A DNA stretch of 64,000 nucleotides from Rhodohalobacter halophilus (lineage in GTDB: Bacteria; Bacteroidota; Rhodothermia; Balneolales; Balneolaceae): contig NZ_MDWE01000001.1 in NCBI RefSeq assembly GCF_001715195.1, positions 62,001 to 126,000 of the forward strand, in the 5' to 3' direction. The translations under genes and the position numbers were made by a program. Below, piece after piece: positions 14,910 through 20,924 of the stretch. How positions within the stretch are numbered: the first letter of the stretch is position 1; each line of letters begins with the position of its first letter. Below the pieces are notes generated by a model. That model was not told the origin of the DNA, did not search any database, and saw only the letters and a list, made by a program, of their open reading frames with translations.

Positions 14910-16058
14910 ATGTTCGACGCTGAAACCATAGAGATCTTCAAATCTCATAAAACTCCGTTCTACTACTACGACCTTGGCCTGCTCCGCCGTACACTGGATG
15001 AGATCAAAACACATGGACTCTCGAAGGGGTATCATGTGCACTTTGCCATCAAGGCTAATTTCAATCTGCCCATTCTTGAAGAGATTCGTAAAGCGGGACT
15101 CGGCATCGACTGCGTGAGTGGAAATGAGATCAAACGAGCCATAGAATCCGGCTTTACAGGGAAACAGCTCGCTTTTGCCGGCGTGGGGAAAACGGATGAG
15201 GAGATTCAGATTGGGCTCGACAACAACATTTTTTCCTTTAACTGCGAGTCGCTACAGGAGCTCGAAGTTCTGAACTCGTTAGCCGGGAAAAGCGATAAAA
15301 CGGCAAACATCTCCATCAGGCTAAACCCGAATGTAGAGGCCAAAACCCACAAATATATCACCACCGGGCTGAATGAGAACAAGTTCGGCATTACGGCTGA
15401 CAAACTCCCGAAATTGTTTGAGATGCTCCCCTCCCTGGAGAATATCAGCCTCACCGGAATCCACTTTCACATAGGATCACAAATCACCGATCTACAGCCA
15501 TTCAAAGATCTTTGTGATCGCGTAAATGAGATGCAGGATCTGTTTGAGAAGAATGCAATCCGTCTTCACCATATCAACGTGGGCGGCGGTTACGGAATTG
15601 ATTATGAGAATCCCGATGATAACCCCATTCCCGATTTTAAATCTTTTTTTGAAGTGTTTGACAGAAACCTTGAACTGCGAGAAAGCCAGCAGGTGCACTT
15701 TGAACTGGGCCGGAGCATTGTCGGCCAGTGTGGCAGCCTGATCTCCAAGGTACTTTTTATTAAAGAGGGGGTGACAACCAACTTTGCCGTGATCGATGCC
15801 GGTATGACCGAACTGATCCGCCCTGCACTCTACCAGGCAAACCACCGGGTAGATGTACTCACGTCAGATAAACCACACAAAACGTACGATGTAGTCGGGC
15901 CAATTTGTGAAACATCCGACACCTTTCAAAAAAAGGTTCAGCTGCCTGAATTGCAGCGTGGTGACCTGGTGGCCATCCGAAGTGCCGGAGCCTACGGAGA
16001 AGTGATGAGCAGCGGCTTCAATTTACGGGAACGTGTGAAGGCAGTATATTCAGAATAG
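14910..16058 (+). CDS. lysA: Diaminopimelate decarboxylase
   Basis: The 382-residue PLP enzyme converts meso-diaminopimelate to lysine and CO2. The PLP lysine is Lys48 in HFAIKANFN. HFHIGSQ (His187) and GGGYG (225-229) form the cofactor phosphate site, and Cys333 in GPICETSD is the substrate-site cysteine contributed in the dimer. I choose ATG 14910 over the in-frame TTG at 14907. No aspartokinase gene is adjacent, so lysA stands alone here. Confidence 0.95.
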   Translation: MFDAETIEIFKSHKTPFYYYDLGLLRRTLDEIKTHGLSKGYHVHFAIKANFNLPILEEIRKAGLGIDCVSGNEIKRAIESGFTGKQLAFAGVGKTDEEIQIGLDNNIFSFNCESLQELEVLNSLAGKSDKTANISIRLNPNVEAKTHKYITTGLNENKFGITADKLPKLFEMLPSLENISLTGIHFHIGSQITDLQPFKDLCDRVNEMQDLFEKNAIRLHHINVGGGYGIDYENPDDNPIPDFKSFFEVFDRNLELRESQQVHFELGRSIVGQCGSLISKVLFIKEGVTTNFAVIDAGMTELIRPALYQANHRVDVLTSDKPHKTYDVVGPICETSDTFQKKVQLPELQRGDLVAIRSAGAYGEVMSSGFNLRERVKAVYSE

Positions 16059-16525
16059 AAACTTGGGTATAAACTACCTTACAAATCGGTCAACACATAA
16101 ACAGCCTCTAATATCAGAAGTGCGCATAGACAAGAGAATTCTGACCCTATCTGTCTTTAATACTCTTTCTTTCTGAGGAATTACACCAAGTTCAAATAGA
16201 AGCCTCAGAACCGGTGCTCAGCCTGCACAAATTTCCCGACTGGTCAACCCCGTATGATCAAACCGCAGGGTAAAATTAAGGGGAAATGGGATAATAATAT
16301 GCACACTCTATTGGAATCATTGGCACGAATAAAGTGAATAACTGATTGCTGAATCCAATATCCAGAACTGAGTGAATATTAAAATTTATACAGATCACTA
16401 TTTTAAATTATACATTTTTATATACATTAAGCACCTCGGGCTTAATAAGTTAGCTTGATTAAAATTCGTGATAAACTTGCTGATCTATCAAGAATCAAAC
16501 AACTGTCAACGAAAACGGAGGTGCC
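16059..16525. other. Long AT-rich intergenic region with a leader hairpin
   Basis: No gene or tRNA is recognisable in these 467 bp. It becomes strongly AT-rich from about 16380. A 7-bp hairpin with a 7-nt loop (ATTAAGC at 16426-16432, GCTTAAT at 16440-16446) lies about 80 bp upstream of the small secreted-peptide gene and may belong to its control region. Confidence 0.4.
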
Positions 16526-16666
16526 ATGATATTCAATCACGTAATCTCTGCAGTACTTACCTTAGCTCTACTCCTCATTCTATCAATTCCTGCCCATAGC
16601 CAATCAACTCTTGAAGATCCTGCCGATCAGGCCGGATATGGGCTTACTCTTAAAGTCAATTTCTGA
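16526..16666 (+). CDS. Small secreted protein, 46 residues, unknown function
   Basis: A short reading frame starts at ATG 16526 with a strong Shine-Dalgarno GGAGGT ending 3 bases before it, unusual strength for this genome. Residues 1-25 are a convincing Sec signal peptide with a long Leu/Ile core and likely cleavage at PAHS-Q. The mature part would be only about 21 residues, ending GYGLTLKVNF. A perfect 13-bp hairpin begins 27 bp after the stop. Strong ribosome site, export signal and terminator together argue for an expressed gene. The terminal aromatic beta-strand-like end resembles the last strand of an outer-membrane barrel, so it could also be an internal-deletion remnant of such a gene. 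No homolog is recognised. Confidence 0.6.
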   Translation: MIFNHVISAVLTLALLLILSIPAHSQSTLEDPADQAGYGLTLKVNF

Positions 16667-16692
16667 CCAAATGATACGCGCTTGACCTAACC

Positions 16693-16732
16693 GGGATTTG
16701 CAAAACGTTCTACATCGTATTTTGCAAATCCC
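16693..16732 (+). terminator. Perfect 13-bp hairpin, probable terminator of the small secreted gene
   Basis: GGGATTTGCAAAA at 16693-16705 pairs perfectly with 16720-16732, with a 14-nt loop. The stem's second arm starts with T4 and is followed by ATTATTTATT. It lies 27 bp after the stop of the 46-residue gene and 30 bp before the next gene. Confidence 0.7.
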
Positions 16733-16762
16733 ATTATTTATTCAACTCCTTAATTCACTCCC

Positions 16763-17149
16763 GTGGAAAATTACTCTAAGCTTCTGATTCCCATCGTTCT
16801 ATTTTTACTATCATTCATCATGATCGGAATACCCTACTGGCTCATACCGATTCAAGAGGTTACTCTCCCAAATGCACTCTATAGTCCGGCACTGACTGCA
16901 GTAGCGGTTGCCACAGCTCTTCTGCACTATCTTACAGAAAATACATTCATCACAAGCGTAAACATCATGGCAATGGTTTTGCCCGCCGTGGTTATGAGCA
17001 GAGTCATTGCGGAGGGCATTATCGATCCCACGTCTCACAATCTCTGGCCAATTGAGCTGATCATCGCCATTTTAATGGGCTATGCTATTGCACTTCCCTC
17101 TACGGTTGTCGGTGTCGCTATTCGAAAGCTCTTCGATCGACCCGTCTAA
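16763..17149 (+). CDS. Small four-helix membrane protein of unknown function
   Basis: The 128-residue protein begins with GTG. It has four predicted transmembrane segments, at about residues 7-28, 42-60, 66-85 and 96-116, with very short loops, and ends in a basic tail (IRKLFDRPV). No ribosome-binding site is obvious. I recognise no family. It converges on the STING-like gene with a gap of only 22 bp. Its regularly hydrophobic composition and full-length frame make it a credible gene. Nothing in the sequence assigns a function. Confidence 0.7.
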   Translation: MENYSKLLIPIVLFLLSFIMIGIPYWLIPIQEVTLPNALYSPALTAVAVATALLHYLTENTFITSVNIMAMVLPAVVMSRVIAEGIIDPTSHNLWPIELIIAILMGYAIALPSTVVGVAIRKLFDRPV

Positions 17150-17171
17150 ACATCAAAACCTTGACTCTTTA

Positions 17172-17822
17172 TCACACCTTCTCAACTTTTATGCGTCTCA
17201 AAACGTAATCCTGCCGGTTATCCTCCAAAAGATCTTCCAGCTGCTCCGCAAACCCTTCGTAATATTGCCGGATCTTTTTCGGTTTGGTTTGACCCAGACT
17301 TATTTTCACAAAACGGGGTAGTGAAAACAGTGTTCTTGGGAAATCTGCAATTTTTAATCGATCTCCTTCTACCTTCGCACGCGACCAAAACGGAGTCCCG
17401 TCTTTTGCGTTGATGATATCGATATTTTGATATCCTTTCTGATTATTTAGAACATCTGAAATCTGATCCAGGCTATCAGAGTTCATCGGCATGTAAACCG
17501 TTATCTCAATACTGTTTATATCAAAGTGCATAGATTTATGTTCATCCCGGAACCTCACCTCCGTTCTTTTACCAATGTTCCGTGCCATCGGCTCCAAAAA
17601 GTTGATAAAATATCCGGTTGCAAGAATTTCGGCCAGTGCTTTCTCTTTCTTACCCAGATTGTTATGAATAAAAAGAGCAATCAACCCAAAAAGAACGGCA
17701 ATGCCAATAATGACCGGAATCCAGGGTCGCTCGAAATAGGGAAGCGTACCCATGATGGAAACAATAGACGGCATCAGTGATATTCCAAAGTCCATCACCG
17801 ATAAGAACTCTTTCCATTTCAT
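17172..17822 (-). CDS. Putative transmembrane STING-like cyclic dinucleotide receptor (TM-STING)
   Basis: The 216-residue protein has one or two N-terminal transmembrane segments (about 13-28 and 35-53) and then a soluble domain (about 57-216) that I read as a STING ligand-binding domain. The first soluble helix LATGYFINFLEP (67-78) aligns without gaps with LAWSYYIGYLRL of human STING. ADFPRTLFSL (159-168) matches the human ATPLQTLFAM region, and the last segment FAEQLEDLL...LRRIKVEK matches FCRTLEDIL...CRLIAYQE. Bacterial TM-STING proteins bind c-di-GMP made by a CD-NTase and oligomerise in CBASS antiphage defence. No CD-NTase is seen nearby. Its ATG overlaps the stop of the upstream NTF2-like lipoprotein gene (ATGA), so the two are translationally coupled. 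The assignment rests on remembered family patterns, not a search. Confidence 0.65.
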   Translation of the reverse strand: MKWKEFLSVMDFGISLMPSIVSIMGTLPYFERPWIPVIIGIAVLFGLIALFIHNNLGKKEKALAEILATGYFINFLEPMARNIGKRTEVRFRDEHKSMHFDINSIEITVYMPMNSDSLDQISDVLNNQKGYQNIDIINAKDGTPFWSRAKVEGDRLKIADFPRTLFSLPRFVKISLGQTKPKKIRQYYEGFAEQLEDLLEDNRQDYVLRRIKVEKV

Positions 17823-18698: not shown

Positions 18699-20924
18699 AT
18701 GAAACTGTTATTTCTTTCTGCTGCTCTTTTTAGTCTGTCTATTCTGCCTGATCAACCCATACTTGCTCAAACTACCCAGCCGGTTCCCGCTCCCACAGAC
18801 TTTGAGGTGCACGCTGTATTTACAGATACGCCCCCATTTATTGATGGTAATCTGGACGATCCGGTCTGGCAGGAGATCCCTCCCATCACCACATTTACGC
18901 AGGTGTGGCCTCGCGACGGTCAACCGGCTACTGAAGACACCGAGGTTCGTATCGCCTACGATCGCGACAACCTCTATTTCGCCTTTCGTTTTTATGATGA
19001 AAATCCTGACCTGATCCGTGCCAAAAACCTGGAGCGCGGCGGACGTAACAACAGAGACGACCATGCCTATATCGGGATAGACACCTACCTCGACGGACGC
19101 AACGCCTATCTGTTTGAAATGAACGCTCTCGGCACACAGGATGATGCCCTGGTAACGAATGAAGTTCTCAACTACGACAGTTTTTCATGGGATGCGGTAT
19201 TCTTGAGTGAAACTGTGATTGATGATGAGGGTTGGACCCTGGAAGTTGCCATTCCGTTTCGCCAGCTTCGGTTTCCTGAAGGTGAAGAGCTGGAATTTGG
19301 GTTGATGGTGTCACGTATGATCAACCGCAAAAATGAGCGCGTTCTCTGGCCGGCGATTGGGATGGAGTATGGCGGAAGTTTTGGAGTGCTGGCAGCCGCT
19401 TCTCAATATGGTCGACTGAAAGGATTGAAGGGGATTAACAGAGGAAAAAATATTGAGATTAAACCGTACGTGATATCCGGTGCACAGGAAGTTCGCCCGA
19501 GCCTGCAGGAGGAAGCCACCGATATCGACTATACCTACGACTTTGGCGGTGACCTGAAATATAGTCTCTCCTCCAACATAACGCTCGATCTCACTGTAAA
19601 TACCGATTTCGCCCAGGTTGAAGCTGATAACGTTCAGCTAAACCTGACTCGCTTCAACCTTTTTTTTCCGGAAAAACGGGAGTTCTTCCTGGAGCGAGCC
19701 GGGCTTTTTGAGCATGGAAATGTCCGTTCAACCCAAACCTTTTTCTCCAGAAATATCGGTCTGACCGATCAGATTCTGACCGGAGCAAGACTTACCGGCC
19801 AAACCGGACGCTACTCTATCGGCCTGATGAATATTGAAACCGGCGGTGGAATGCGCGATCTATTTGGAGTCAACTCAACAAACAATACAGTAGCTCGCTT
19901 GCAGGCAAATGTTTTTCCAAGGGCAACGGTTGGAACCATTTTCACCAACGTTGAGCGTCCGGACGGATTTAATCGCGCGCTCGGCCTCGACACTAAATAC
20001 CGTTTCTGGAGCTCCAGCCAATTCGATGCCTGGTTCACCAACGTCTGGGATGAGAACAGTATGCTGAACGATGCTGCCGGAAATATCTCCCTTCAACTTG
20101 AGAATGATCTTTATGAAGGCGGAACATCATTTACGTCCGTCGGAGTTAACTATCGGCCGGAGCTTGGCTTTGTACGCCGGCGTGATTTTCGTCAGTACTC
20201 TGCAAATCTCGGATATAAACCCAACGTCGATTTCAACTTGATCCCCTCTATCCGAAAACTCTATTTCCGAACTTCTTTCGACTATTTTGAAGGGCAGGAC
20301 GGCACACTTCAAACCACTGAATTTTCAGCTTCCATACGGTCTGAGTTTGGAAACCGTCAATCATTTGAAGTAGAGTATGACCGACAGTTTGAGCGACTCA
20401 TCAATGATTTTGCCCTCCGTTCGGATGCTATTATTCCCGCCGGAGACTACACGTTTCACACTCTGTCAGCCAGTGGAAAAACCGATGAAGCCCGTAATGT
20501 ATTTGGATCGTTCGATTTCTCAACAGGCCAGTTCTACGATGGCAATCGAACTGACTTTGGTGTCGATTTCGGATTTCGACAATCGAGACACTTTCATGTA
20601 GAGGGCGGTGTTGGCCATACGATCATTCGTCTGCCGTTCGAGAATGGAGATTTCGAAGCCACCACCATACGAACATCGATGTTGGGTGCCATCAGCCGAA
20701 AGCTGTTTGCCAGGGCTTTGGTTCAATACGACAATTTTTCCAGAAACCCGCAGACAAACCTTCGCATCAACTGGATACACCGGCCGGGGAGTGATCTGTT
20801 CCTCGTATTTAATATCAACTACCATATCACCGGAGACAATGAGGACCTCTTCGATCCTCGGAAAGATTTCATCCTGAACAGCCGTGCCGGAATTGTGAAA
20901 TTAACATATTTGATCATGATTTGA
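18699..20924 (+). CDS. DUF5916 outer-membrane protein with N-terminal CBM9-like domain
   Basis: The 741-residue protein carries a signal peptide (cleavage near ILAQ). An N-terminal CBM9-like jelly roll (about residues 35-240; PFIDGNLDDPVWQEIPPI and VRIAYDRDNLYFAFRFYDENP) is followed by a C-terminal DUF5916 region (about 245-741). The latter is rich in alternating beta strands, with the family segment NLFFPEKREFFLERAGLFE near 330. Such proteins are common in Bacteroidota-like and gammaproteobacterial marine bacteria, are predicted outer-membrane beta-barrels, and are often found near peptidases. Role unknown; binding or passage of peptides or glycans is plausible. It is monocistronic here. Confidence 0.9.
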   Translation: MKLLFLSAALFSLSILPDQPILAQTTQPVPAPTDFEVHAVFTDTPPFIDGNLDDPVWQEIPPITTFTQVWPRDGQPATEDTEVRIAYDRDNLYFAFRFYDENPDLIRAKNLERGGRNNRDDHAYIGIDTYLDGRNAYLFEMNALGTQDDALVTNEVLNYDSFSWDAVFLSETVIDDEGWTLEVAIPFRQLRFPEGEELEFGLMVSRMINRKNERVLWPAIGMEYGGSFGVLAAASQYGRLKGLKGINRGKNIEIKPYVISGAQEVRPSLQEEATDIDYTYDFGGDLKYSLSSNITLDLTVNTDFAQVEADNVQLNLTRFNLFFPEKREFFLERAGLFEHGNVRSTQTFFSRNIGLTDQILTGARLTGQTGRYSIGLMNIETGGGMRDLFGVNSTNNTVARLQANVFPRATVGTIFTNVERPDGFNRALGLDTKYRFWSSSQFDAWFTNVWDENSMLNDAAGNISLQLENDLYEGGTSFTSVGVNYRPELGFVRRRDFRQYSANLGYKPNVDFNLIPSIRKLYFRTSFDYFEGQDGTLQTTEFSASIRSEFGNRQSFEVEYDRQFERLINDFALRSDAIIPAGDYTFHTLSASGKTDEARNVFGSFDFSTGQFYDGNRTDFGVDFGFRQSRHFHVEGGVGHTIIRLPFENGDFEATTIRTSMLGAISRKLFARALVQYDNFSRNPQTNLRINWIHRPGSDLFLVFNINYHITGDNEDLFDPRKDFILNSRAGIVKLTYLIMI

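Follow-up and report, generated by a model that had tools for sequence, protein, structure and literature searches.

A 46-codon open reading frame in Rhodohalobacter halophilus is most likely the remnant of a longer membrane-protein gene

Is the short open reading frame (ORF) downstream of lysA in Rhodohalobacter halophilus a gene for a secreted peptide, or is it what remains of something longer? The ORF lies in a 64,000-nucleotide stretch of one contig (hereafter the window), at 16526-16666, and encodes 46 residues (MIFNHVISAVLTLALLLILSIPAHS-QSTLEDPADQAGYGLTLKVNF). A sequence-only reading had taken it for a genuine short gene with a ribosome site, a signal peptide and a perfect terminator, and had named the scar of a deleted outer-membrane barrel gene as the alternative. 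The elements on which that reading drew are all present. The N-terminus, judged by eye, resembles a signal peptide, and GGAGGT lies 3 bases 5ʹ of the ATG, closer than the usual spacing of 5-9 bases. The arrangement GGAGGT-NNN-ATG occurs once in the window, and at least once in 37 of 100 shuffles. Beyond the stop codon is a 13-bp hairpin with a loop of 14 bases (arms GGGATTTGCAAAA, 16693-16705, and TTTTGCAAATCCC, 16720-16732), for which the RNA fold is -19.7 kcal/mol (z -6.6 versus shuffles). It is terminator-like, but “perfect” is too strong: the hairpin is followed directly by ATTATTTATT, with no clean T run, and is missing from the output of a terminator scan that covered loops of 3-8 only. 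The 46-residue product has no Pfam match. As a candidate for a known RNA element, the locus was set aside: an Rfam scan of 16000-17200 gave a single chance-level match, to Plastid-rpoB (20 bits versus 45).

The equivalent locus in a same-genus genome, G009 (record LKNA01000040.1, deposited as MAG Chitinophagaceae bacterium T5-Br10_B2g13), carries a whole 156-aa gene (L029:1844-2314, minus strand), both ends of which match the 46-codon ORF. When 58 genomes (own included) were searched with the 46-aa query, residues 1-39 matched G009 at 77% identity (E 2e-13) and residues 31-46 matched at 69%, about 300 bases further on, within one open frame of 179 codons that contains the 156-aa gene. G009 is the only convincing match besides the query itself; matches at E 0.03-1 in 19 other genomes of the 58 were taken, by their E-values, for chance hits to signal-like segments. 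The 156-aa protein, searched against 28 genus genomes, matched G009, the remnant in the window’s own genome and, weakly, G012 (E 1e-3), where the frame has only the hydrophobic motif region in common, in a different sequence context. Neither the short nor the long form was found elsewhere among these 28 genomes, and the best hit in G023 had an E-value of 1.8, which is no match. The window’s genome has no match to the 156-aa protein besides the remnant, at E <= 0.001 or at E <= 0.01.

The leader, the ribosome site, the signal peptide, the C-terminal strand and the 3ʹ hairpin are common to the window and the G009 gene. Because the leader, the ribosome site, both frame ends and the hairpin all recur in G009, there around the 156-aa gene, the comparison indicates that these elements of the window are beyond chance. 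How do the two ORFs relate to each other? We scanned offsets of 318-342 and every break point under a single-deletion model. The best fit takes 101 bases of the G009 gene and then an offset of 330, with 123 of 141 bases matching. The window ORF thus corresponds to the first 101 and the last 40 bases of the G009 gene, and 110 codons that are present in G009 are gone from it, in frame. In G009, the direct repeat copies CAGCCCGGTTAT and CAGGCCGGATAT are exactly 330 bases apart and match at 10 of 12 positions; the junction pair is among just 6 of the gene’s 79,800 pairs of 12-mers at least 60 bases apart that match at 10 or more positions. The letters of the repeat in the window are those of the 3ʹ copy throughout. 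The alternative named by the sequence-only reading, a deletion scar with both ends kept, is therefore borne out by the exact in-frame offset, and the search of relatives that it proposed did find a full-length gene at the site. The coordinates are collected in Table 1.

Table 1. Features of the putative remnant locus and its neighbour, in window coordinates.
Feature	Position	Strand	Comparison and remarks
Conserved leader/promoter region, with GGAGGT at 16517-16522	16378..16525	+	About 150 bases, 75% identical to the G009 leader; G009 homology starts at 16378
Remaining 5ʹ gene end: start codon, signal-peptide-like segment, start of mature part	16526..16626	+	Matches the first 101 bases of the G009 gene (156 codons); residues 1-39 are 77% identical at the protein level
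Remaining 3ʹ gene end: last 13 codons including stop	16627..16666	+	Aligns to the G009 gene at offset +330
330 bases absent between 16626 and 16627		+	From the G009 gene alignment
Junction copy of the 12-base direct repeat, the only one left, CAGGCCGGATAT	16628..16639	+	G009 copies 330 bases apart
13-bp hairpin, terminator-like	16693..16732	+	Also 3ʹ of the whole G009 gene
ORF for a 128-aa membrane protein; neighbour, outside the remnant	16763..17149	+	65% identity in G009, same order there

In the 156-aa protein, a signal peptide precedes a hydrophobic domain, which bears an LPGGGHFYSGE motif, and a C-terminal strand follows. Matches at E <= 0.01 were found in 34 of 394 phylum genomes, a set that includes the window’s own remnant and excludes G009. 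Two distant homologues (37% in G275, 29% in G178) show a hydrophobic segment at the N-terminus, together with the PGGGxxYxGE motif, a YxIxDA segment and a strand at the C-terminus. Both hold the missing middle, which indicates that the long form is the ancestral state. In Pfam, the G009 protein scores 18.6 bits to DUF6677 (cut-off 24.3), with no row for DUF5683. The rows for eight homologues include DUF5683, DUF6677, TM2 or Borrelia P13, one of them above its cut-off (DUF5683, L055). A single-sequence structure model of the 156-aa form, of low confidence (mean pLDDT 48.8), consists of helices and two terminal strands; no solved structure matched this form at E <= 1. Based on the Pfam rows and the model, the lost gene probably encoded a membrane protein of helical fold rather than a barrel. 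The window’s genome keeps one full DUF5683 gene, on contig 4 (E 1e-37), which is a different paralogue.

The 46-residue ORF is most likely a relic rather than a dedicated peptide gene. We give a probability of about 90% that a small exported membrane protein, DUF5683/TM2-like, was once encoded here by 156 codons, and that the ORF is what remains after one in-frame deletion of 330 bases between the copies of a 12-base direct repeat. The ancestral gene would have carried two copies of the repeat, 330 bases apart, and replication slippage or RecA-independent recombination between them could have removed the 330 bases in frame. One repeat copy and both gene ends would remain, with the leader, the ribosome site and the hairpin inherited from the whole gene. 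The function of the membrane protein would be lost, and any short exported peptide would be at most a by-product of the inherited signals. Since the deletion is in frame, it is sufficient on its own to account for the open 46-codon frame. The whole gene is found in one genus genome only (G009, tabulated at 9% contamination), such that the deletion is read from a single near comparison together with the distant homologues. The wider significance is that a convincing small secreted-peptide gene, complete with ribosome site, signal peptide and terminator-like hairpin, can arise from a single in-frame deletion. Such by-products are a trap for small-ORF discovery. A literature search on small ORFs and deletion remnants found no paper.

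What else could account for the locus? A dedicated short secreted-peptide gene, with no relation to a longer gene, would explain the anatomy of the ORF, but both ends match one 156-codon gene, in a syntenic place and at an exact in-frame offset, and the short frame is not conserved: in the one near relative that has the locus, the long form is found, an observation that the sequence-only reading had itself named as counting against its preferred claim. We regard that possibility as refuted, with a residual likelihood close to nil. The proposal that the lost gene encoded an outer-membrane beta-barrel draws on the C-terminus, where an alternating strand ends in F, and on similar end strands in the distant homologues. 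However, the missing middle is hydrophobic, a DUF5683/TM2-like motif is present, the low-confidence model is helical apart from its two terminal strands, and the homologues score, mostly under cut-offs, to the families listed above. GYGLTLKVNF, which had been read as a final outer-membrane strand, is in this model the last strand of a small terminal pair; the barrel to which it was assigned is most likely wrong, and we consider it highly improbable. An assembly error or a mixed population, in which the organism has the 330 bases but the assembly skipped them by collapsing the short repeat, might be suspected in a draft genome of 92 contigs. A repeat of only 12 bases, imperfect in G009, is an unlikely cause of such a collapse; moreover, the site is internal to a 173,911-base contig, and a search of the assembly for the deleted part found it at no other place at E <= 0.01. 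An artefact of this kind therefore seems improbable, if slightly less so than a barrel.

A further possibility accepts the deletion and holds that its product was retained, the fused 46-residue form being expressed and exported as a mini-protein on which selection acts in this lineage. The frame, the ribosome site, the signal-like N-terminus and the hairpin are all intact, and comparison of the remnant with G009 gives a dN of 0.086 and a dS of 0.41 (ratio 0.21). The silent-site difference is 0.31 (about 33 silent sites), compared with 0.60 for lysA, 0.63 for the 128-aa ORF, 0.69 for the STING-domain gene, 0.71 for the SnoaL-like gene and 0.60 for the gene at 18699, of which the 5ʹ part was compared. 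In these five genes, the minimum over 858 windows of 46 codons is 0.36, although these windows overlap heavily and correspond to an estimated 23 non-overlapping ones. Silent sites kept this well are unexpected in a remnant long dead, and to that extent count against the leftover reading. Nonetheless, they do not prove that the short form is in use: the window’s genome (G000) and G009 may have diverged mostly before the deletion, in which case dN/dS reflects the whole gene, and two sequences cannot polarise the changes. Constraint on the gene ends, high expression, recombination at the locus or chance could each explain the low silent-site difference. In addition, neither the 28 genus genomes nor the 58 relatives yielded the short form a second time, and the in-frame deletion alone accounts for the open frame. 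We therefore consider retention of the mini-protein unlikely. The same low likelihood applies to a fuller version, in which a membrane-protein gene came, through the in-frame deletion, to encode a secreted peptide of 21 residues that selection has kept, partly via constraint on DNA or RNA in the leader and at silent sites. If retention were true, a short gene would have been born from a longer one by internal deletion, in one step.

Across 16378-16640, the leader and the silent sites of the remnant are better conserved relative to G009 than are the silent sites of the neighbours, with no stable common RNA fold. Identity to G009 falls from 75% in the leader to 63% in the 3ʹ region. We rejected a structured leader RNA, since folding of the leader barely beats that of shuffles in either genome (z -0.97 and -0.67), and the predicted structures are not alike. 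We also rejected a repeated element: among the 28 genus genomes, the only strong match to the leader besides its own is in G009, with others at E 0.01 or weaker.

The surroundings of the locus are shared with G009. lysA is upstream in both, and the downstream order (128-aa membrane ORF, STING-domain gene on the other strand, SnoaL-like gene, start of the gene at 18699) is common to the two. In G009, lysA and the 156-aa gene are about 4.7 kb apart, whereas in the window the corresponding distance is about 0.3 kb. From lysA to the conserved leader the window has roughly 315 bases (16063-16377), which do not align to the 4.7 kb of G009; this points to another insertion or deletion at the locus, on either side of the comparison. 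The 128-aa neighbour is matched in 7 genomes of 58, the window’s own among them. In G023 (L073 4133-4252, minus strand) it is a broken fragment with stops; gene decay at the locus is therefore not limited to the window’s genome.

Two genes downstream of the remnant, 17172-17822 (minus strand) encodes a 216-aa protein that combines hydrophobic segments near the N-terminus with a prokaryotic STING domain (PF20300, E 2.8e-23). This gene is very strongly conserved in G009 (dN/dS about 0.02) and occurs in 3 of 58 relatives, a count that includes the window’s own genome; in G023, too, it adjoins the SnoaL-like gene. Its neighbourhood contains no recognised CD-NTase, and it is possibly a stand-alone STING. 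Among G000, G009 and G023, a SMODS match was found only in G000, on another contig: contig 12 encodes a 404-aa SMODS-type nucleotidyltransferase (L078 721-1935, minus strand) between a 382-aa ORF, by eye HNH/SAVED-type effector-like, and a 155-aa ORF. This region may be a separate CBASS-like operon. A literature search on prokaryotic STING in Balneolaceae found no paper, and the available part of PMC12424679, on STING, contains nothing bearing on the remnant locus.

The deletion and the gene that it removed both resemble known systems. A literature search on DUF5683 found nothing relevant. The small membrane proteins of the DUF5683, DUF6677 and TM2 families (PF18935, PF20382, PF05154) have a P-G-G-G-x-F-Y-x-G-E motif and hydrophobic segments, as does the whole form, although the latter falls under the Pfam cut-off and the 46-aa remnant has no domain. 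Loss of the stretch between short direct repeats, with one copy left, is a known process in bacteria, as described in the available part of PMC5426353. Nothing at this locus differs notably from that description, with the qualification that the repeat is imperfect in G009, which stands in for the ancestor. The window has likewise lost the stretch between the repeats, and keeps one copy.
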